Assembly: GCA_034509925.1 (NCBI GenBank)
Contig: CM067534.1
Location: forward strand, 3,619,501 to 3,683,500
From: Hirudinaria manillensis
Lineage: Eukaryota; Annelida; Clitellata; Hirudinida; Hirudinidae
Direction: 5' to 3'
Length of the DNA stretch: 64,000 nt
The notes under the pieces were generated by a model. The model was not told the DNA's origin. It ran no database searches and saw only the letters and a list, made by a program, of their open reading frames with translations. The position numbers were made by a program, and so were the translations under genes. Positions 11,301 through 62,736 of this stretch are shown here, one piece after another (positions within the stretch are counted from its first letter, which is position 1; each line of letters opens with the position of its first letter).

Positions 11301-11690
11301 GCAGGGAGAACACGATATTCCTTCATGCATCCTTCACGAGGCAGTTTCACATTTTAACATTCATTTCAAGTAACTATTTATTACATCCATCCATCCATCC
11401 ATCCATCCATCCATCCATCCATCCATCCATCCATCCATCCATCCATCCATCCATCCATCCATCCATCCATCCATCCATCCATCCATCCATCCATCCATCC
11501 ATCCATCCATCCATCCATCCATCCATCCATCCATCCATCCATCCATCCATCCATCCATCCATCCATCCATCCATCCATCCATCCATCCATCCATCCATCC
11601 ATCCATCCATCCATCCATCCATCCATCCATCCATCCATCCATCCATCCATCCATCCATCCATCCATCCATCCATCCATCCATCCATCCAT

Positions 11691-11726
<36 letters not shown>

Positions 11727-13973
11727 CGGGCCGTCCGCTCATCCATCACAAACATTCCATGCAGCCATTTTGGAAAATTTTTTTTGAAGCCATCGGGTGA
11801 ACAATTTGAAGTGAAATTCTTCACTCGATGGAATTATTTAGAATTTAAATATCAATTCTCTTCATATTTTTTAAAATCCCTTGCGATCAAAATATGTTAA
11901 ACGACTGGCTGTTATTTATAGCATGGTGGAGAGCGTTTCTTAAAACATAACAAATCTCTTAAAGATTTATTCCGAAAAAAATAGCAAAAAAATTCCAACA
12001 ACATCTCCGTCTGACATTCCAGATCAACAAGGAAGATGAAGGAATACCACCGCCGCCATCGTCGTCGTCGTCATCACCTCCTCCACCGGTACCGCCTCGC
12101 AACAGATCATTGTACCACAATCTTGGCTGCGGTAGGGCTAGGAGCCCTGAAGTTCAGATCGCCGGTGGAAAAACTTCACCGAGTTGTGCAGACGGAGTGA
12201 ACAGTCAACGACAAGACACCGACATCCACGATCCTTCTTCTTCTCCCGTTGGCAGTGGACCGACCGACCGCCTCTCGCCTCACATGTTCTACGACTTCAG
12301 ATCCAGAGAATCGCAAGACTACGTGATGGCTACGATGAAGCAACACAGATTGAAGCCGCACGTCGACAATCAAGAACCGAGACGTTCACATCAACAATCT
12401 ACAATCGTAGTAACGCCTCGATCAAAGAACTCGGAAATTCCATCCGATAATCCGACGCAAGGTCAACCCGTTCACGAATGCGTCGAGGGCAACACGAAAG
12501 GCATTCAAGAGATTCCAATCAGTCCCGTCAAAGCATCGACTCCGCCCGACTCGGAAGCAAAACCGGCAAAGAAACTACCCGAGAATCTGCACCTCTCACC
12601 CCCATCGCTGGCGATCGAGTCGAGTCCGCTGCCGAGTCCCGACGAGAAGTTAAAGAACTTCGTCATACCCTGTCTTTGGTTCAACAGCACCCCTTACGAC
12701 AGACTTCTTATCAGCATTCTCGACCCCAGAAACACCATCTCAGATCTTGACAAACTGACTTCCTGGGACGGATACAAGAGGCTACTTCGGCCTATCGGTC
12801 CCGACGAATGGAATCCAAATCCGGGGTCGCCGACGACATCAACTTCCACCGACGCCTGCGCTGGAAACTCGTCAAAGCCGTCCTTGCCGCAAAGTCCAGT
12901 TTCTCCGTTCTTTCGTTCGAAGTTTTCAGCTTTCATACCCGAAGAAGAAAATACAGAAGGAGGTCAAGTCGATGAAGCGAGCAACAACACGATTCTGGTC
13001 TGTCATGTCTGTCTGTCTGTCAGAGTATAAGTCACTCGTTCGTGATGAACGGATAGTTCATGCGGCAGTTCGAGTAAATATGAACACGGAATAATTTTAT
13101 TTTGTTTGTTTTCTTTTCAGAATTCAGTACAAACCATCGTTAGTAATTATCAGGAGCTGGAATCACGGGTTAGACATTACGAAGTTACAACATTACAATA
13201 TTACGCCATTGCAATATTGCAATATTACAATATTATATTACAATACAATACGATACGATACAATGCAACACAATGCAACACAATACAACACAATACAATA
13301 CAGAATTCAGTATTACAACATCACAACATCAGGACTCAACAGATTTTCAATGCGTAATTAAAAGTTGTTTATCTCAGATCAAGAAATTATTAACGACCAC
13401 GACTGACGCAAAAACTCAGGAGAGATTTTCATTGCTACTGCAACAGATGGACACTTCCTTGCAATTGATTGCCAAACTAACAGACCAGATGACGAAATTG
13501 TCATCAGACATGACCTTGAAGGTGTCTTGCTTTGAATTCATTGGAATTAAATTTGAATTAATTCAAAAGAACTAATGTAAAACACGTCAAATTCTTTATT
13601 ATTATTATTATTTGTTAACAAGTATTATCAACTAATTAACTGACAATCTCCTCAAAATTCGAGGTTTTTTAAACCCCTTTCTTTGGCTAAACACGATGAT
13701 GTCAAATTCGCAGCTGTTCAAATGCTTTTTGTACAGGGCCATGCAAGGCAGAATCGTCTCATAGAGAAGCTGGCCGAAGCAAGGGACCTTAAGATGAACA
13801 TCGACAAGAAAGGTGAACAGTTGGCCTTGAAAATCAAGAAAAGTATTGACCAGAAGTCCTTCGAAATGCTGGAATTTTTGCTCAAAGCCCGCACCTACGT
13901 GACACTTCTCAATCGGTCAAACTTTATCACGGCCCGTCGCAAGGCATCTATTCCGAATATTGTTATCAGCTAA
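8388..13973 (+). CDS. Shroom-like actin/Rock-binding protein with C-terminal ASD2-like domain
   Basis: Predicted exons 8388-9962, 12023-12997, 13121-13168, 13378-13521 and 13737-13973 join in phase 0 to give 992 aa. The first 850 residues are Ser/Thr/Asn-rich and low in conservation, with a proline cluster (PPPPVPPR) early in exon 2. The last 140 residues form a coiled coil. Its final exon ([18 protein letters not shown], then a ..[16 protein letters not shown] stretch) aligns with the Shroom ASD2 core, where LLxxLxxAxxLKxNLDxR is followed by a hydrophobic helix. In known Shrooms ASD2 binds Rho-kinase and drives apical constriction. Within the proposed exon a stop lies just upstream of ATG 8388, so this is a possible true N-terminus; no PDZ domain is visible. 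The first intron holds a long ATCC microsatellite. Shroom membership is inferred from the C-terminus only. Confidence 0.66.
11384..11727. repeat. Long (ATCC)n microsatellite
   Basis: About 85 nearly perfect tetranucleotide copies, with a few interruptions (CGTCC, CGGGCC) at the right edge, lying in intron 1 of the Shroom-like gene. It is open in all three complementary frames as repeated Met-Asp-Gly-Trp, which is not a gene. Confidence 0.97.
13180..13315. repeat. Degenerate pentanucleotide repeat (ATTAC/AATAC type)
   Basis: A run of related 5-mers (AATATTAC, AATAC, GATAC, AATGC, AACAC) in the short intron between the third and fourth exons of the Shroom-like gene. The order of variants suggests slippage followed by point mutation. 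Confidence 0.75.
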
Positions 13974-19363: not shown

Positions 19364-27835
<8,472 letters not shown>

Positions 27836-53546: not shown

Positions 53547-55088
53547 ATGGGGACTTTAAGTTTTTCCAAAGTATCGCCGATAGTATACTTATTGATAAGC
53601 ATCTTTTCCATATCATCGTGGGCGGACATAGTCGGTCTCTGGATGGAACTGCCATTGATGATAAAAGAACTTCCAGAGGGATGGAGTCTTCCATCTTACA
53701 TGTCACTGGTCGCCCAGTTGGCAAACGTGGTGCCGCTTGTGTATTTCATCGTATCCAGCATTTATTCCAAGCGGAGAAGTGCAGGGAATGATGTCCACAA
53801 CAAAACGGATATCCTTTTGTCCTTTGTAATCATTTCCGTGGAACTCCTGTCCATGTTTCTCATGTCCATCTTCTGGAATTACACGGTCATCATAGGCGGT
53901 CAAAATCGAAGCGTCGCCCTGTTAGCGTTGCTTTGCTGCAGTGGAGTTTGTAGTTGCTTGTCGTCATTGGTCTTTTTGCCCTACATGGCTCGCTATCCAG
54001 ACCATTACATATCGGCATATTACTTGGGCAATGGATTATGTGGAATCGTACCTGGATTGATAGCCTTATCTCAAGGCATTGGGGAAGAACCGCTGTGCGT
54101 GAATACTACTCTGACAAATAAAACATGCTCGAGTCTTAATTGTGAGGACTCACATCACTTTCAAATGGTACCTGAGTACCCTGCACCCAACTTTTCAGTT
54201 CAAGTTTATTTAATTTTTATTTGTTGCTTGTTAGCTATCAGCTTTCTGTCATTTTATTTTCTCAACTACACAAGATTAGTGAAGCATCAATTATCTAAAA
54301 ATGATCGGAATCAGAAACGGGCGAATTTCGTCGTGACAAATGGAATGAATCAGCGAAAGTCAAATGAAGTGACTGGAGATGAATTGCTTGCGATGGAACA
54401 ACATGCAAAACAATCCAATTGTAATTTCATCTATCAGTTGATCTTGACTGGCATTATTAATGCAGTTTACTATGGAGCAGTGCCTTCCTTATTACCCTTT
54501 TCCTGCCTACCATACGGAGATTCTACGTACAATCTGGCCCTCAGACTGTCATTCATGACTGGAGCCGTTGCCTCTGTTGCTGTCTTATTTCTCCCAGAAC
54601 CTAGCGGAAAAGTTGTAACGGCCATAGTTTCAGTTGGTTTGTTGAGCAGTGGATATCACTTAATATTGGCCTTGCAGAGTCCCCATCCAGTTTTGCAGTA
54701 CGAAGTTGCTGGGCCATTTCTAGCGGTGCGTTTTACGAACCTTCTGCATTACGAAATTTTACAAAAATGCCTTGGAACTATCTAAAAATTTGCTAAGAAT
54801 GGTACATTCAACAAAAGAATTTTCCTAACTTTGATTAGAAGTTACTATTTAAAGGGTGGAGTTAATTCGACGTTTGAATTACAGGTCGCCGGCGCTCTGG
54901 TCATGTCAATCTGCTTTTCTTATACCAGAGTGACAATAGCCGCTAAGCTTCATTCATTGAAAGGACGTCAGGCTCTGATGTGGTGTGGTGTATTGACTCA
55001 AATTGGAACCTTTTTTGGAACTATGATAACCTTTGCCATCATCAACTGGACTACCCTTCTTGTCAGAAAACCCCCTTGTAGCGGATGA
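53547..55088 (+). CDS. SLC52A: Riboflavin transporter, SLC52A family
   Basis: Plasma-membrane riboflavin carrier. Two exons, 53547-54725 and 54885-55088, join in phase 0 for 460 aa (human RFVT3 469). Family landmarks are clear: an N-terminal membrane helix followed by GLWMELPLMIKELPEGWSLPSY, QLANVVPLVY, SSLVFLPYMARYP, YYLGNGLCGIVPGLIALSQG, a loop with N-glycosylation sequons (NTT, NKT, NFS), a central cytosolic loop, FLPEPSGKVV and a last part with SYTRVTIAAKL and RQALMWCGVLTQIG. About eleven hydrophobic helices can be counted. ATG 53547 is favoured because an acceptor lies 15 bases upstream and the family begins just before its first helix. AATAAA follows at 55191. Confidence 0.95.
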
Positions 55089-56685
55089 TTGAACGTATGC
55101 AAACGTATACATACGTATGCGTTTCTACACCAATGAGCATTACTGGTGTAACTTCAAATGCACTTGTTCCACCTAGACAAAATAAAAATTAACCATTTTA
55201 TGGCTTGAATTAAATGCGCTGGTGCAAATAAATTCACGACAAATTGAGCCTTTGAACTTACATAAAATATGCCACATGCCACCATTCACCAGATGTTAGT
55301 GTGTGAACTTTTTTTTAAACTTCATCTCTACAAATCCATCTTTTCGTGATCAATTCTGTTTAAATATTCAGTGTAACCAATCCTTTAAGATGCTTTCGAA
55401 CCATTACTAAAACATTAAAGGTGACCGATCAACGATCAACATCAACTTAATCTTAAAGTAATTAAATTAGCGCCGGCAGTTGAATTCGTGTTTGGTCGCG
55501 TCATACACCATTTGAAATCGTTATTTATATTTATATTACCCAGAGACACGACCAATTTTTTTCGTGTGTTACTTCGCTACGGGCCCGTCTTAACGTTTAA
55601 CATTCGAGGAGACACACCATTTGTCGCCGTAAACACGAGTCTCTTAAGAATGATTGATAAGCACATACTTTGAATTGTTGATCATCATTATTAGTCATAA
55701 ATAAACAAATGGAATTTTAAAAATATGTAAAACGTATACATAATAACCCTTTCCCTGAGTCAAAATCTTGTCAATGTACCTGCTTACCAATATTTATTTT
55801 AAAAAATAAATCGTTCAAACTAATAACACCTGGAAGCCGCTTCGACTTTTACCCAAGTGGGTGCTAATCAATCCCTGCCTCAGCCTAATGACCACTACCG
55901 CTTCCCATCAAGAGCTGCGATGGAGCTATGTATGAACACAACAAAATAGATGAAGCCGTCACCAAAATGTGCTTGACAAACGAACCTTACAAAAACAGCT
56001 TCAATAGTTCTATATTTAATTAAAGTAATTTTATAATTATTTTGATACTTTCACTGTCATTTTTACTGAGTACAGTATTTTAAACAAATACTTCCAATTT
56101 CATTGAAACAATTTTGTGAGGTAATGTTTTATTTTCACCCATAAGTGAAAAAGCAGGTATGTATTTCAACAAATGACAGAACTGCTCATGTATATGCAGA
56201 ACTAGTTAATAAGAAATCAATGCAAAATAAAATAACCAAAAAATAGTGTGATTAGTGACAAATAGGAAATGAATAGAAATGATAACCAAACCAATACAAC
56301 AAATTTGTAAAAGTCGAAAAGACAAAGGCAAATAACTTTTATAATAGTTAAACGAATTTATAAAAAGCAATTTAAATAAAGCAAACTTAAAATGCAACAA
56401 ATATAAAAATTGCAAGTAACATTCTAACAATGAAAATGTTATAAAATTTAACCCAATAAACAAATAATATTAAAATAATAGATAAATTATATAACATTTT
56501 ATTTTTAATCAAATGATAAATTAGAAAATGTTTTTCAAAAATTAAACGATCAAGCCTTTCAACAACTTCCGATTATGTTGAAGGGGAAGCCGGCAGAACG
56601 TTCTTTTCGCCGCATGCTCTTAGGTGGGTTGGTCGTAAGACCGTTATCGCATAGCTTTGAATTTTTTTTTCAAATTAATAAAGAT
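55089..56685. other. Intergenic region upstream of the snoRNA array
   Basis: Mostly AT-rich with no recognisable coding. The stretch 56570-56660 is richer in G and C than its surroundings (CGCCGCATGCTCTTAGG) with a pyrimidine run TTCTTTTC. It could be the promoter or first exon of a snoRNA host transcript; this is inference. Confidence 0.4.
55191..55196 (+). promoter_or_regulatory. Poly(A) signal of SLC52A-type gene
   Basis: AATAAA 103 bases past the stop codon. Confidence 0.55.
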
Positions 56686-56769
56686 GGAACGGTATGATGA
56701 AAATTGAAACATTCGCAGCTGTCGTCTGATTTGTGATGTTCAATTCCTTCCTTGGATGTCTGACGTTCC
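56686..56769 (+). ncRNA. SNORD14: U14 C/D box snoRNA, copy 1
   Basis: Box C ATGATGA (56694-56700), 18S-complementary ACATTCGCAG (56709-56718), the conserved TTCCTTGGATGT segment and box D CTGA (56760-56763). Terminal stem GGAACG/CGTTCC. U14 is required for 18S processing. Confidence 0.93.
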
Positions 56770-56841
56770 GATTAGGATAATTTTTTATTCTGTTGACCCG
56801 TGACGGGATGCGGCCGCTGTCGGTCGTAGTCTAGTTTCGGA

Positions 56842-56980
56842 GTGCCCAGATCGAAGCCGAGGAACCTGTAATTCATTTGGGTTTGTCGGTCAAAAACTGA
56901 GGCCAGAGAAAGGATCTCTTTAACGGTCGCTCGTCGGTCGATTGTACGGCTTCGGGCACTTACCCAGGAGATCGACAAGA
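56842..56980 (+). ncRNA. H/ACA snoRNA, copy 1
   Basis: Two hairpins joined by an H box (AGAGAA) and ending in ACA plus three bases. The 5' hairpin has base GCC/GGC, then a loop, then GCCGAGGAACC paired with GGTTTGTCGGT. The 3' hairpin has base GATCTCTT/AGGAGATC and apex GTCG/CGGC. Each has an internal loop where a pseudouridylation pocket would be. Confidence 0.78.
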
Positions 56981-57002
56981 ATGGAGGATGTTTTATGGTG
57001 CA

Positions 57003-57071
57003 TGGCAATGATGATTCCTGATTAGTCTTTCTTAATCAGATGATGAACACTTTCGCCCCTATCTGATGCCA
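57003..57071 (+). ncRNA. SNORD80-like C/D snoRNA, copy 1
   Basis: Box C ATGATGA, C' ATGATGA, box D CTGA, terminal stem TGGCA/TGCCA. The guide before D, CTTTCGCCCCTAT, is complementary to the conserved 28S rRNA segment ATAGGGGCGAAAG. CTGATTA/TAATCAG forms an internal hairpin. Confidence 0.85.
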
Positions 57072-57105
57072 GCGCAAGAAAGTATTAAATTAAATTGATA
57101 ACTTT

Positions 57106-57180
57106 GTCGAAATGATGTTTTATAATGCATAGTTCATCTTACCAATACTATGGTGACAATTATCTAGTCAACTGATCGAC
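57106..57180 (+). ncRNA. C/D snoRNA D, copy 1
   Basis: Terminal stem GTCGA/TCGAC, box C AATGATGT (one base off consensus), C'-like TGGTGA, box D CTGA. The guide before D is TTATCTAGTCAA; target not identified. Confidence 0.75.
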
Positions 57181-57203
57181 ATACATAATGATGATTTGGA
57201 TTT

Positions 57204-57283
57204 GTTGGCAGTGATGCATCAATATTTGCTATCATAGTTTACTGTGATGAAGGAAAAACTACCACTAAGATCTCTGAGCCAAC
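57204..57283 (+). ncRNA. C/D snoRNA E, copy 1
   Basis: Terminal stem GTTGGC/GCCAAC, box C GTGATGC, C' GTGATGA, box D CTGA. CTACCACTAAGATCT before D and AATATTTGCTA before the C' region match neighbouring parts of the conserved 28S sequence around GATCTTGGTGGTAG and TAGCAAATATT. Confidence 0.82.
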
Positions 57284-57373
57284 TCTTATTTTACTGTATG
57301 TTATTGTAACTTGGTGAAGCAGTTTTCCTATATTTTATTCAGGAAAATTCAATGTAATAGTTTTGTAATTATC

Positions 57374-57446
57374 TTGTGCAATGATGCTTTCTCACACTTG
57401 AAATCCAAATATTTTTGATGTGGACAAAGTATAAGACTGAGCACAA
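57374..57446 (+). ncRNA. C/D snoRNA G, copy 1
   Basis: Terminal stem TTGTGC/GCACAA, box C AATGATGC, box D CTGA, C'-like TTGATGTG. Guides around CACACTTGAAATCC and CAAAGTATAAGA; target not identified. Confidence 0.78.
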
Positions 57447-57479
57447 CCTAAGTATGTAATATTGATGGACAGAAATTAT

Positions 57480-57562
57480 GGAAAGTATGATGAAAATTGA
57501 AACATTCGCAGCTGTTGTCTGATTTGTGATGTTCAATTCCTTCCTTGGATGTCTGACTTTCC
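57480..57562 (+). ncRNA. SNORD14: U14 C/D box snoRNA, copy 2
   Basis: Same core as copy 1, but the terminal stem is GGAAAG/CTTTCC, a compensatory change against GGAACG/CGTTCC. Confidence 0.93.
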
Positions 57563-57637
57563 ATTTAGGAAATTTAGGTTTTCATTTATTTGCAAAGACA
57601 CCAGGTGTGACCAAAGTTGGTCATGGTCTGTGTTCTG

Positions 57638-57776
57638 GTGCCTAGATCGAAGCCGATGAACCTGTAATTCATTTAGGTTTGTCGATCAAAAACTGAGGCA
57701 AGAAGAAGGATCTCTTTAACGGTCGCTCGTTGGCTGATTCTACAGCTTCGGGCACTTACCCAGGAGGTCGACAAGA
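57638..57776 (+). ncRNA. H/ACA snoRNA, copy 2
   Basis: 5' hairpin base TGCCT/AGGCA and GCCGATGAACCT/AGGTTTGTCGAT. H box AGAAGA. 3' hairpin base GATCTCTT/AGGAGGTC, apex GCTG/CAGC. ACA box at 57771-57773. Confidence 0.78.
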
Positions 57777-57798
57777 ATGACAGATGTTTTATGGTGCT

Positions 57799-57867
57799 TG
57801 GCAATGATGATTCCTGATTAGTCTTTCTTAATCAGATGATGAACACTTTCGCCCCTATCTGATGCCA
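57799..57867 (+). ncRNA. SNORD80-like C/D snoRNA, copy 2
   Basis: Same boxes, guide and internal hairpin as copy 1; terminal stem TGGCA/TGCCA. Confidence 0.85.
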
Positions 57868-57899
57868 GAGCAAAAATGTATTAACTTATTAATGATTTT

Positions 57900-57974
57900 G
57901 TCGAAATGATGTGTTATAACGCATAGTTCATCTTACCAAGATTATGGTGACAATTATCTAGTCAGCTGATCGAC
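57900..57974 (+). ncRNA. C/D snoRNA D, copy 2
   Basis: Terminal stem GTCGA/TCGAC kept. Several substitutions from copy 1, including the guide (CTAGTCAG). Spacers are unrelated to units 1 and 3. Confidence 0.73.
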
Positions 57975-57996
57975 GTTTCATGATATTTGAAGATTT

Positions 57997-58076
57997 GTCA
58001 GCAGTGATGCATTAATATTTGCTATCATAGTATACAGTGATGAAGGAAAACCTACCACTAAGATCTCTGAGCTGAC
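57997..58076 (+). ncRNA. C/D snoRNA E, copy 2
   Basis: Terminal stem GTCAGC/GCTGAC, a two-pair compensatory change from GTTGGC/GCCAAC in copy 1. Boxes and both 28S-matching guides are conserved. Confidence 0.83.
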
Positions 58077-58106
58077 TGGTATATAATTGTTTACTTTAGC
58101 TTGATC

Positions 58107-58182
58107 AATCGGCTGTGATGATTTATAAAATCACACACTTGACCTGAATAACATTTGATGTACATGTTTTTCTGAGCTGATT
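58107..58182 (+). ncRNA. C/D snoRNA F, copy 1 (unit 2)
   Basis: Terminal stem AATCGGCT/AGCTGATT, box C GTGATGA, D' CTGA after ATCACACACTTGAC, C'-like TTGATGTA, box D CTGA. Target not identified. Confidence 0.8.
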
Positions 58183-58237
58183 TGAGTTTATGGAAAATTA
58201 TGTGTAATAACCATTTTATAGTATTGCTGAAGATGTC

Positions 58238-58310
58238 TTGTGCAATGATGCTTTCTCACACTTGAAATCCAATCATTTTTGATGTGGACAAAACATAAGA
58301 CTGAGCACAA
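58238..58310 (+). ncRNA. C/D snoRNA G, copy 2
   Basis: Stem TTGTGC/GCACAA and boxes as in copy 1. The guide before D reads CAAAACATAAGA instead of CAAAGTATAAGA. Confidence 0.78.
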
Positions 58311-58340
58311 CCTAACTTTATAATATTGATTGCCAGAATT

Positions 58341-58421
58341 GGAAAGTATGATGAAAATTGAAATTCGCAGCTGTTGTCTGATTTGTGATGTTCAATTCCT
58401 TCCTTGGATGTCTGACTTTCC
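58341..58421 (+). ncRNA. SNORD14: U14 C/D box snoRNA, copy 3 (altered 18S element)
   Basis: Stem GGAAAG/CTTTCC and boxes intact, but two bases are missing, so ACATTCGCAG becomes AATTCGCAG. This weakens 18S pairing at its 5' edge. Confidence 0.88.
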
Positions 58422-58492
58422 AATTAGTTTTTATATGCATTTTATATTTTATATACTAGGTGTGACCAAAGTTGGTCATGGCCTTTGTTCTG

Positions 58493-58631
58493 GTGCCTAG
58501 ATCGAAGCCGATGAACCTGTAATTCATTTAGGTTTGTCGGTCAAAAACTGAGGCAAGAAGAAGGATCTCTTTAACGGTCGCTCGTTGGCTGATTCCACAG
58601 CTTCGGGCACTTACCCAGGAGATCGACAAGA
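58493..58631 (+). ncRNA. H/ACA snoRNA, copy 3
   Basis: 5' hairpin GCCGATGAACCT/AGGTTTGTCGGT with base TGCCT/AGGCA, H box AGAAGA, 3' hairpin base GATCTCTT/AGGAGATC, apex GCTG/CAGC, ACA at 58626-58628. Confidence 0.8.
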
Positions 58632-58653
58632 ATGGAGGATGTTTTATGGTGCA

Positions 58654-58722
58654 TGGCAATGATGATTCCTGATTAGTCTTTCTTAATTGGATGATGAACA
58701 CTTTCGCCCCTATCTGATGCCA
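58654..58722 (+). ncRNA. SNORD80-like C/D snoRNA, copy 3
   Basis: As copy 1, except the internal hairpin arm is TAATTGG, which still pairs with CTGATTA through G-U wobbles. Confidence 0.85.
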
Positions 58723-58756
58723 GCGCAAGAAAGTATTAAATTAAATTGATAACTTT

Positions 58757-58831
58757 GTCGAAATGATGTTTTATAATGCATAGTTCATCTTACCAATACT
58801 ATGGTGACAATTATCTAGTCAACTGATCGAC
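58757..58831 (+). ncRNA. C/D snoRNA D, copy 3
   Basis: Appears identical to copy 1, including neighbouring spacer. Confidence 0.75.
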
Positions 58832-58854
58832 ATACATAATGATGATTTGGATTT

Positions 58855-58934
58855 GTTGGCAGTGATGCATCAATATTTGCTATCATAGTTTACTGTGATG
58901 AAGGAAAAACTACCACTAAGATCTCTGAGCCGAC
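58855..58934 (+). ncRNA. C/D snoRNA E, copy 3
   Basis: Almost identical to copy 1; terminal stem GTTGGC/GCCGAC with one wobble. Confidence 0.82.
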
Positions 58935-58971
58935 TCCTATTTTACTTATGATATGTTATTTTAACTTGGTT

Positions 58972-59047
58972 AATCAGCTGTGATGATTTATAAAATCACA
59001 CACTTGACCTGAATTACAATTGATGTATATTTTTTTCTGAGCTGATT
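58972..59047 (+). ncRNA. C/D snoRNA F, copy 2 (unit 3)
   Basis: Terminal stem AATCAGCT/AGCTGATT, a perfect 8-bp pairing where unit 2 has a G-U pair. Boxes conserved. Confidence 0.8.
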
Positions 59048-59103
59048 TGAGTATAAGGAAATTTATCTATGTGTAATAACCATTTTATATTGCTAAAGAC
59101 GTC

Positions 59104-59176
59104 TTGTGCAATGGTGCTTTCTCACACTTGAAATCCAATCATTTTTGATGTGGACAAAACATAAGACTGAGCACAA
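59104..59176 (+). ncRNA. C/D snoRNA G, copy 3 (altered box C)
   Basis: Stem and box D kept, but box C is ATGGTGC instead of ATGATGC, so k-turn assembly may be weakened. Confidence 0.7.
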
Positions 59177-59207
59177 CCTAAGTTTATAATATTTGTGGAA
59201 AAATTAT

Positions 59208-59290
59208 GGAAAGTATGATGAAAATTGAAACATTCGCAGCTGTTGTCTGATTTGTGATGTTCAATTCCTTCCTTGGATGTCTGACTTTCC
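59208..59290 (+). ncRNA. SNORD14: U14 C/D box snoRNA, copy 4
   Basis: Full U14 core with ACATTCGCAG and TTCCTTGGATGTCTGA; stem GGAAAG/CTTTCC. Confidence 0.93.
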
Positions 59291-59358
59291 AATTATAAGT
59301 TTTTATGTATTTGTCCTGTTGCCAGGTGTGACCGAAGTTGGTCACGACTTATTTTCTG

Positions 59359-59497
59359 GTGCCTAGATCGAAGCCGAGGAACCTGTAATTCATTTGGGTT
59401 TGTCGGTCAAAAACTGAGGCCAGAGGAAGGATCTCTTTAACGGTCGCTCGTCGGCTGATTCTACAGCTTCGGGCACTTACCCAGGGGATCGACAAGA
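59359..59497 (+). ncRNA. H/ACA snoRNA, copy 4
   Basis: 5' hairpin GCCGAGGAACC/GGTTTGTCGGT, base GCCT/AGGC, H box AGAGGA, 3' hairpin base GATCTCTT/AGGGGATC, apex GCTG/CAGC, ACA at 59492-59494. Confidence 0.78.
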
Positions 59498-59519
59498 ATG
59501 GTGGATGTTTTATGGTGCC

Positions 59520-59587
59520 TGGCAATGATGATTCCTGATTAGTCTTTCTTAATCAGATGATGAACACTTTCGCCCCTATCTGATGCC
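59520..59587 (+). ncRNA. SNORD80-like C/D snoRNA, copy 4
   Basis: Last RNA of the array; boxes, guide and internal hairpin as in copy 1. The spacer after it is unrelated to the other units. Confidence 0.84.
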
Positions 59588-60111
59588 GGCATTACATTTA
59601 ATTTATTTGTTATTTCTTTTGGAGATTTTTGTCAGATTTGGTTGAAGGAAAATTCGTAAAATAATTGGCAATAAAATAAACCCACACACTTGTGTTGCTG
59701 GTTGGTTTGTTTTATTTTATTTGGGGTAAAAACTTTAGATTTTATTGGGGTAATTAATGGTATTAGATTTATTTGATGTTGAGACACCACTTGGTTTGTA
59801 GCACTAAGAATTTGTTAAAATTGTTGTTAGTCGTGAACTGGTTCAATCCTCTTCATTTTGTTATGGTTGAATATTCCTGCCCTCGTTGGCTGTAAAGTAA
59901 TTTAATTTTTTTAGATTGTAATTTTGATTAATTTTATAAAATGTGAACTTTTTATAACTATTTAAATTGCATAACAATGCTATGTAAAACTTGATTTTTT
60001 AAAAAATACTGTTAATACGTTTATGTATCACTTGATGTCAATAAATAATTGAATAATCTTCATGTTATTACTTCAAAAGCTTTTTGGGTTGTCGATACTG
60101 GGGATTGTTAT
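59588..60111. other. Spacer after snoRNA array
   Basis: AT-rich. An AATAAA near 59672 could end a snoRNA host transcript. No coding seen. Confidence 0.4.
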
Positions 60112-62736
60112 TCAATCTATTACTAATTTTAGCTTAGGCTTAGGTAAAAACTTTCTAACTTCCTCGGGTGTATCTGTTCGGTGATTCTCCTTCTGCAATT
60201 TATAAGAAATATAAATATTTGTAATCTATCTATATAAATAAAAATGCAAGGTGTGTTTGTATCATGTAAATGTTCCCTGAAATTAAAAATACGTTTTTTT
60301 TTTCGAAAATCCTGCCATGTCGCCACGGACATGAAAAAGCTTAAAATGTCTTGACCCTCAAGCATTGTGAAATTGTAAAAATAAACATATTAGAAAATGT
60401 CTTTCTTATAAAATTAATCAGATTGAGCCACAGCAACGCGTGCTGGACACCTCTATAAATATTTCTCTATGAATGCTGTGAAACCCGATAGAATATAATT
60501 CAGATTTCATACTGAAATTTTGATTCAATTTTACTAGATCGAGTTGGTTTTTGATTACTAGATATTCATAAAATTAATTGTGGAATTATTAAATTAACTT
60601 GGAATTTATCACACTGGGAAACCAGCTAACCTGTAATCTGATGACGACAAAAAAACCAGCTTGGAACGCCAAGTAAATGAACCCAAATGATCCCATTACG
60701 ATGATATCGATCGTTCGTCCAAGTTCCGTAGATTTCTGCTTGGTAATCATTGGACACCAACTTGAATTGTTCGCTAAGGTATAAGAGATTAATGGCTTGC
60801 TTTGCGTCCAACTATTTATAATTGATCCGGAAATAGACTGCCATATGCAGATACAGCACAGTATCATCATGGAGCCCAGTACATACTTATCCTGTGATTG
60901 CATAAAAAATTACTTATGTAGTCTTGAGGTTTAATCTGTCGAGGAAAACATGTCACGTGGCAATACAAACTAGATATGTAAGGTACGATATCTTCGGAAG
61001 ACTCTTGTTAACGACCAATTTGAAAGTAACTGTGGTCAGGACAAGTAGAAAGGTCAAAGGTAGCCTTGATTCAGGCGTTTCCAGTTGCACGGTAAACGTC
61101 GCAAAGGAGAGACTGCATATAGCAAACTGTAACATGGATTGTTCATATTTAAATTGTAGGTGATTTATTAACAATTTATTGAATTACAGCTTACAAGAGA
61201 CCAATAAAAATTGTAACAAAATACGTACCATGATAACAATGACATTGTATATAAAAAACTGTGGTCTTCTGGCCGCTTTTGTGGCAACACAGAAACAGGG
61301 ATACACCAGCTTTTTCTTGTGAACCGTCTTTACACTTAATTTCGTCCACACTTCAACCGATTTGTGGATCTGCCATTCCTGAGCTGCACTGAAAGCTCCG
61401 GCATTGACTGAACTGGTGTCGTCTGGAATGAATTCCATCTCAAAGGCCTGTCTCTCACTGGTGACTGTGATTGTGAGATCCTGCGATCATTTGCATCCAT
61501 TTTTATCGCCATTCGCAATTTGTCATTTACTTGAACTTGATAAATCTGAGAAATTTAACCTACCCGGCATTATTAAAATTGAAGGTAGAGAATACTTTGA
61601 TATTACTTTAGTTCAGAACCAATTAATGATTAACGCGATTAATATTTTAAAATGTTGGATAAAACCGCTCGTCTGTGAATCAATTTTGGTTTAATCAAGA
61701 CAAAACTGGAGACTTTTAGCCATACCTTATAGTTGTTAGTATTAATACCTTTTGGCCATATCTTGTAGTCGCTGGTAGAAATAGCTAATAGTATAATATC
61801 TTTTAGCCATACCTTACAGTCTGTCGTATTAATACTTTTTATTCTCTAACGCAAGCTAACCTGAGTGTCGAAAGGGAACTTATGAAGTTCCATGAACTCG
61901 AAGAATTGAGATGCACTTGTCTTACGTTTCTCAACGATCCAGGCCTTGCCACATTCGTCGATTTGAAGGAATTGTGTCGTGTTGTACTGAAGTTCACCGA
62001 TACCGTTAGCGATGCTCACCTTGGGATTCCAGAATTGAGACAAGTCTGCACCAAGTTTTTCTCTCTAGAAAGTTACCAGAGAAAATAAGCTCTTTCATGA
62101 GTATTCTGCATCTACATTAATTAACAGCAATAAATATTAGTAATTAATACGGCTTTTTCATAACTTGTTATCTTATTTTTGCACATATATGTCAAGAAAT
62201 TAGGATACACACTATAGACGATGTACATAGTGTCAATGCCTCAAATTGTTTCATTTAAGTTCTTAGCCAGATTCTACAAGTTTGTATCAAGAGAAACTCA
62301 AGACCGGGGAGCAATGCATCCCAACGAGGCAAACGTAGTGTAGTTTTGATAATTTCAACTGGTACCGTCTTGTCATCATCAAGTAATGGTTCTCTCCATC
62401 TGAGATGGACCATCACCTCGGCCGAATAGCGATCATGTGATGTGTCAATGGCACCGATTTTCAAGAAATTCACCTTCACGAACACAAAGACCTGAATCCC
62501 GAATCACATAATTTAAAAAAAAAACTCGAAAGGCTTTGTTTAAAGCCGACCTTTTCCAAAGTTTCACTTTCGAGAAGTGGCTGAGGAAGGAATCTCTTTG
62601 GATCAGGGATTCTAATAAGTCTTGGCTTTGATAGAATTTGTTTGTCGTTTTGTTTCAAAGTTAGTAAATGATCTTTCAGAAGATTCTCCAAACTTTTGAT
62701 TTGAAGAATGAAGAGCTTGTGTTTATTGTCTTCCAT
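60112..62736 (-). CDS. Pentameric ligand-gated ion channel subunit without the Cys-loop cysteines
   Basis: Minus-strand exons 62551-62736, 62366-62491, 61861-62064, 61229-61480, 60971-61126, 60631-60891 and 60112-60192 keep phase and give about 421 aa. The extracellular domain has VKVNFLKIGAIDT, HLRWREPLL, DLSQFWNPKVSIANG and the loop core FPFDTQ. The cysteines that flank this core in eukaryotic Cys-loop receptors are absent (ELHKFPFDTQDLTI), as in prokaryotic channels and some invertebrate relatives. Four membrane segments follow: M1 FFIYNVIVIMFAICSLSF, M2 LPLTFLLVLTTVTFKLVV, M3 KYVLGSMMILCCICIW and M4 IDIIVMGSFGFIYLAFQAGF. The proposed ATG (62736) opens a hydrophilic, probably helical stretch rather than a signal peptide, so the N-terminus is uncertain. 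The donor at 62365 was chosen because phase and family spacing agree. Ligand and ion selectivity cannot be read. Confidence 0.85.
60222..60460. mobile_element. Possible Helitron-like remnant in the last pLGIC intron
   Basis: Starts TCTATCTATATAAATAAAAA followed by a GTGTGTTTGT run, like many animal Helitron 5' ends. About 200 bases later is a small hairpin CAGCAACGCGTGCTG near 60431-60446, like the GC-rich hairpin near Helitron 3' ends. The terminal CTRR is not convincing. Confidence 0.35.

Follow-up and report, generated by a model that had tools for sequence, protein, structure and literature searches.

Background

Clusters of small nucleolar RNA (snoRNA) genes are known in trypanosomes. 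Animals predominantly carry one snoRNA per intron, plants have intergenic clusters and eutherians have the tandem SNORD113-116 repeats (PMC11028025). Among chicken clusters are some whose snoRNAs are spread over the introns of a single host gene (PMC2653536), and the tRNA-like UM2 promoters of Caenorhabditis elegans serve 47 loci of noncoding RNA, 40 of them snoRNAs (PMC2527325). For snoRNAs outside introns, the actors that release co-hosted members are described as largely unknown, and 5′-end processing in higher eukaryotes as unknown (PMC12508059). Here we describe a tandem array of C/D and H/ACA snoRNA-like sequences, with U14 at the head of each unit, in a window of 64,000 bases (C9:3619501-3683500, the whole stretch analysed) of a 148.4-Mb genome in 23 contigs that is probably that of an invertebrate animal.

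The array and its RNA families

The array lies on the + strand at window positions 56687-59588 and consists of 23 snoRNA-like copies of seven families (labelled A and C to H in Table 1) in units of 6, 7, 7 and 3 copies, unit 1 having lost RNA F. The copies occupy 2031 of the 2902 bases and are separated by spacers of 21-88 nt; no open reading frame of at least 100 aa was listed in window 55089-60588. An earlier sequence-only reading had described a tandem, mixed-class array of seven kinds of RNA repeated about 3.4 times, in 23 copies on one strand, with U14 first in each unit. The counts, order and strand were confirmed, and the interpretation is supported by the ordered copies, the boxes and stems, and the complementarity of four families to ribosomal RNA (rRNA).

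U14 (SNORD14) has box C, box D and the terminal stem in 4/4 array copies and in a lone copy elsewhere; it scores 44.7-50.2 bits with Rfam in the array and 53.9 bits in the lone copy, all below the gathering score of 64, the RNA being shorter than the 111-position model. U24 (SNORD24) exceeds its gathering score in 3/3 array copies, and RNA G (SNORD63-like) and RNA F (SNORD79-like) score below theirs. The H/ACA RNA (SNORA16 / psi28S-3327) folds into two hairpins, and its H and ACA boxes were identified by eye. In the genome search, U24 was above the cut-off in three copies, all in the array, with two further noise-like matches at E 0.65-0.68 (only 59 of 150,775 first-look candidates scored); U14 was well above noise in five, four in the array and the lone one, with two further matches at E 0.74-0.83 (100 of 3,331 candidates scored). 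When the whole array was used as a DNA query, one U14 and one RNA C copy turned up outside the window (2 first-look candidates); diverged copies could escape these searches.

Between units, the RNA bodies have an identity of 89-100%, gap columns included, against 49-70% for the spacers between U14 and the H/ACA RNA (A-H spacers). Terminal stems are paired in 118/118 tabulated cells, with three two-sided changes, in stems that were picked by eye, which favours pairing. The earlier statement that each copy keeps its boxes and terminal stems while most spacers diverge overstated the integrity of every copy, as two copies look damaged, and the weight given to the compensatory changes was overstated too.

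Complementarity to ribosomal RNA

Four C/D families, U14, C, D and U24, carry guides complementary to rRNA. Guide pairing was compared with that to dinucleotide-shuffled rRNA, and the shuffles pairing as well were counted; the targets were the genome's own 18S and 28S fragments together with L021 and L027, and six rRNA contigs were scanned. RNA C, which carries CTTTCGCCCCTAT, forms two pairings of 13 bp each with the genome's own 28S fragment (0/500 shuffles as good for the box D guide and 0/500 for the D′ guide), and both guides fit a single 28S site. In the unit 2 copy of U14, domain A pairs with the genome's own 18S fragment (0/500) and domain B with the 18S part of L027 (1/100). The guides of the unit 1 U24 pair with L021 (box D 0/100, D′ 1/100). 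The D′ guide of the unit 1 RNA D pairs with the 28S part of L027 (0/100), over 12 bp there, 11 in L025 and 10 in L023.

Partial 18S and 28S fragments are inserted in the genome at L006:1501-2121 (C4) and L011:311-572 (C1), and searches with three patterns did not reveal a complete rDNA unit. The eukaryotic rRNA of L021-L023 and L025-L027 lies on contigs filed as bacterial genomes and represents contamination in the public collection.

Two further targets were considered and rejected. In units 2 and 3, but not in unit 1, RNA G can form 17 bp, G.U pairs included, with L006:1854-1870 (0/200 shuffles for units 2 and 3 each, 32/200 for unit 1); this stretch was not accepted as a target, lying as it does at and past the end of the 18S-alignable part, with a pairing that is not against a D′ box. 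This 18S-derived fragment aligns clearly to the 18S of L027 just over its first 170 bases. ACACTTGA, common to RNAs F and G, would be complementary to U2 small nuclear RNA (snRNA) in the form expected for one of its stretches, but U2 in this genome has TCAAAGTGT there and the site fails. The U2 genes themselves are repeated in tandem, with a period of about 1.2 kb, at C2:12504767-12582929, in which 46/46 scored candidates have the same score; one copy (L034, around 165-490) appears by eye to be split by an insertion of about 120 bases.

The array is real and most likely functional. Several points weigh against the transcription model given below. Rfam gathering scores are not reached by 20 of the 23 copies. 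Two copies look damaged, both in unit 3: G, with box C altered to TGGTGC, and U14, with a 2-nt loss. The shuffle tests used just two of the six rRNA contigs scanned, and the D′ and U14 guides, unlike the box D guides, were delimited at the ends of their matches, with those matches already known. RNA C is without a canonical D′ box. No better than shuffles were the box D guide of RNA D (28/100 and 98/100), the guides of RNA F (box D 99/100; D′ 24/100 and 52/100) and the box D guide of RNA G against L021 (13/100); RNA G reached 1/100 against L027, but with a G.U-rich pairing. A scan of the H/ACA pockets gave no well-scoring site common to the rRNAs, which are incomplete. Finally, the A-H spacers contain splice-like sites, cag/GTGTGA in units 2 and 4 and the weaker tag/GTGTGA in unit 3.

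Transcription and processing

We consider it likely, though not assured, that the array is an independent noncoding transcription unit yielding seven kinds of snoRNA. In the model that we infer for its polymerase, promoter, 3′ end, mode of cleavage, expression and dosage benefit, and for the function of the lone copies, RNA polymerase II (Pol II) would start at a GC-richer patch near 56.6 kb and transcribe all units as far as a poly(A) signal near 59.67 kb. The RNAs would be loaded co-transcriptionally with C/D and H/ACA proteins, either endonuclease cleavage or splicing would open the short spacers, and exonucleases would trim back to the closed terminal stems. U14 would then act on 18S rRNA, RNAs C, D and U24 would direct 2′-O-methylation of 28S rRNA and the H/ACA RNA a pseudouridylation. 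The array may have grown by unequal crossing-over, with the likeness of its units kept by gene conversion, and raised dosage would be its likely benefit.

Runs of at least four T (4-7 T) lie inside 7/23 RNAs (D 2/3, F 2/2, G 3/3), among 27 such runs array-wide; since these are expected to stop RNA polymerase III (Pol III), they point to a noncoding Pol II precursor. The array copies of U14 and C, the families with lone genes, are without internal runs of this kind. The patch at the putative start is set in AT-rich DNA and contains the pyrimidine run TTCTTTTC at 56601. An snRNA-type promoter was not found, the array upstream region having no similarity to the U2 upstream region (222/300 shuffles as good).

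A hairpin with an AAGU loop, a loop type of yeast Rnt1 (RNase III) sites, occurs in the A-H spacers of units 2-4, where it overlaps the YAG/GTGTGA splice-like motif. The spacers have fold z values of -1.55, -2.20 and -2.30 in units 2-4 and -1.10 in unit 1. The hairpin is a candidate RNase III site, for which its 8-bp stems look short.

The same motif bears on a possible but doubtful alternative, in which the snoRNAs lie within introns of a noncoding host of the UHG/gas5 type, with tiny exons in the A-H spacers and perhaps elsewhere and up to six or seven snoRNAs per intron. In its favour, YAG/GTGTGACC is kept in the spacers of units 2-4, and it could use the donor-like AG/GTGGGT at 56624 and the acceptor-like sites at 57343 and 59326; multi-snoRNA host genes are also common in animals (PMC11028025). 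However, unit 1 is without the YAG element, no consistent donor was seen by eye after the kept motif, and equally strong sites occur elsewhere in the window (donors scoring at least 8 at 0.44 per kb and acceptors at least 10 at 0.36 per kb, by splice-site matrix).

Probable gene conversion and possibly damaged copies

Between units 1 and 3, 2 of 332 positions (56949-57280) are mismatched, against 12 of the 107 immediately upstream. This near-identical tract probably arose by gene conversion, and its presence means that identity by itself is no proof of function; the contrast with the spacers and the stem changes are better evidence of selection. Could a single unit be functional, the others being pseudogene copies kept alike by recent conversion? 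The tract, the missing F of unit 1 and the altered G and shortened U14 of unit 3 would fit such decay. Yet units 2 and 4 have U14 bodies without a single difference, although their A-H spacers are only 65% identical (72% ungapped), and the chosen terminal stems are still paired in the tabulated copies, which makes a set of partly decaying duplicates improbable.

Lone U14 and RNA C genes

It is highly improbable that the array snoRNAs are transcribed one by one by Pol III, each from A/B boxes within or upstream of it: loose B-box-like GATCGAAGC stands at the start of four H/ACA copies, GTTCAATTC lies within four U14 copies and strict B boxes precede the lone copies, but the strict B box GTTCGANTCC was not found in the array and runs of 4-7 T lie inside 7/8 copies of D, F and G.

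The lone U14 and RNA C genes each have a strict B box on their own strand (GTTCGAATCC and GTTCGACTCC; 2/2), 27 and 30 nt before TGATGA. The strict B-box word occurred 4 times in 233,410 strand-bases, and 3 times in 320,620 when one locus was dropped and others added; two occurrences in each set are the lone-copy boxes. A-box-like TGGCTGTCGCGG and TGGCTTAGTATT (TGGC...) begin 44-47 nt before the B box, with 2 mismatches to TRGYNNARNNGG; as these A boxes are loose and the A+B pattern also matches the other 2 of the 4 B boxes, it is the B box that carries the argument for a tRNA-type promoter. TTTT follows the stem by 5 nt in the lone U14 and by 89 nt in the lone C. No tRNA was found upstream of either copy by ARAGORN or Rfam, and the upstream elements do not fold significantly better than shuffles (54/200 and 33/200). 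Each element had one match genome-wide (one first-look candidate each), and a repeated tRNA-derived short interspersed element as source of the lone copies was rejected at that sensitivity.

Unit 1 and the lone U14 have the GGAACG stem and GTCG in common, and the lone C shares its 3′ flank GGCATTACA with the C of unit 4 alone among array copies; the array ends thus look least homogenised. An apparent coding start, seen by eye about 300 nt downstream of the lone U14 on the same strand, makes a 5′-untranslated-region intron possible for the lone copies. U14 and RNA C have a putative second source 88 kb off, each behind a tRNA-like element and probably transcribed by Pol III.

Feature coordinates and neighbouring sequence

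Upstream of the array lies an SLC52 gene for a riboflavin transporter, with its end at 55088 and an AATAAA at 55181. The window also contains long perfect or near-perfect microsatellites, for example (CATC)86, (AAT)67 and (CAAT)69 at 11384-11727, 23965-24164 and 27065-27340.

Table 1. Features of the snoRNA array and its lone relatives (window positions unless a locus is named)
Feature	Position	Strand	Basis or remark
Candidate promoter / first exon of array transcript	56575..56660	+	Putative, from sequence and splice scoring
A, U14 (SNORD14), unit 1	56687..56769	+	Rfam E 2.2e-7, under gathering
H, H/ACA RNA (SNORA16 / psi28S-3327 clan), unit 1	56842..56980	+	Rfam E 2.4e-4; two hairpins; H and ACA boxes by eye
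Tract common to units 1 and 3	56949..57280 (unit 3: 58600-58931)	+	2 mismatches in 332
C, C/D RNA, unit 1	57002..57071	+	Both guides fit one 28S site
D, C/D RNA, unit 1	57106..57180	+	Rfam E 2.9e-4; D′ guide vs 28S
E, U24 (SNORD24), unit 1	57203..57283	+	Rfam above gathering; guides vs 28S
G, C/D RNA (SNORD63-like), unit 1	57372..57446	+	Rfam E 8.5e-4
A, U14, unit 2	57479..57563	+	Rfam; copy used for both 18S-complementarity tests
AAGU-loop hairpin, A-H spacer, unit 2	57606..57625	+	Fold
H, H/ACA RNA, unit 2	57638..57776	+	Rfam, fold
C, unit 2	57798..57867	+	
D, unit 2	57900..57974	+	Rfam
E, U24, unit 2	57996..58076	+	Rfam above gathering
F, C/D RNA (SNORD79-like), unit 2	58104..58186	+	Rfam E 0.019
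G, unit 2	58236..58310	+	Rfam
A, U14, unit 3, 2-nt deletion at 18S-pairing stretch	58340..58422	+	Rfam
AAGU-loop hairpin, A-H spacer, unit 3	58461..58480	+	
H, H/ACA RNA, unit 3	58493..58631	+	Rfam, fold
C, unit 3	58653..58722	+	
D, unit 3	58757..58831	+	Rfam
E, U24, unit 3	58854..58934	+	Rfam above gathering
F, unit 3	58969..59051	+	Rfam E 0.0043
G, unit 3, altered box C (TGGTGC)	59102..59176	+	Rfam
A, U14, unit 4	59207..59291	+	Rfam
AAGU-loop hairpin, A-H spacer, unit 4	59327..59346	+	
H, H/ACA RNA, unit 4	59359..59497	+	Rfam, fold
C, unit 4	59519..59588	+	3′ flank GGCATTACA
AATAAA, candidate polyadenylation signal of array transcript	59670..59675	+	Putative
Lone U14	L004:4163-4245, C9:3587.7 kb	-	88 kb from array
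Lone RNA C	L004:4606-4674, C9:3588.1 kb	-	88 kb from array

Comparison with known systems

A literature search (titles and abstract openings, mostly of open papers) found no tandem array of mixed C/D and H/ACA RNAs in an animal. TTAGG is the typical arthropod telomere repeat. The telomere-type repeats here are TTAGGG, versus TTAGGC in C. elegans (PMC12921731), and the TTAGGG arrays near the start of C1 argue against a nematode or a typical arthropod. We offer only tentatively the wider proposal that core snoRNAs for rRNA have moved out of introns in an animal other than a nematode, into an unspliced, mixed tandem Pol II polycistron and into Pol III genes with tRNA-type promoters for U14 and one C/D RNA, the same snoRNA coming from two polymerases.

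Such an arrangement is better known from the intergenic polycistronic clusters of plants than from animals (PMC11028025); here, in a genome that looks animal, a series of up to seven RNAs recurs in tandem, in a fixed order. The sequence-only reading had called the locus unusual for an animal and plant-like in its close spacing, which agrees with the one-per-intron rule in that source. The array resembles SNORD115/SNORD116 and SNORD113/SNORD114 of eutherians in its tandem repeats, copy-number change and non-allelic conversion, but those are orphan C/D families at imprinted loci (PMC11028025), whereas the present array is one compact block with both classes and seven families, of which four have rRNA guides. 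In Drosophila Uhg-46E3, H/ACA and C/D RNAs are likewise neighbours, within an untranslated host that is putatively polycistronic; unlike those of the array, its members are very dissimilar, and an origin by local gene duplication was excluded in that paper (PMC5932544).

In S. pombe snR107-snoU14, U14 is freed from a longer RNA with another snoRNA, with a cleavage stem-loop, as may be the case here; that system has two snoRNAs, one of them intronic, and cleavage by RNase III (Pac1) was studied there (PMC12508059). As a natural tandem array with 21-88-nt spacers, the locus would test how animals excise several snoRNAs of both classes from one RNA. The lone U14 and C genes resemble C. elegans UM2 loci in having a B box closely upstream of the snoRNA (PMC2527325), and differ in their loose A boxes and in that the same families also occur in a tandem array. 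The two routes to the same RNA could be compared within one genome, and what most deserves a test is the second, tRNA-like route to U14 and C.

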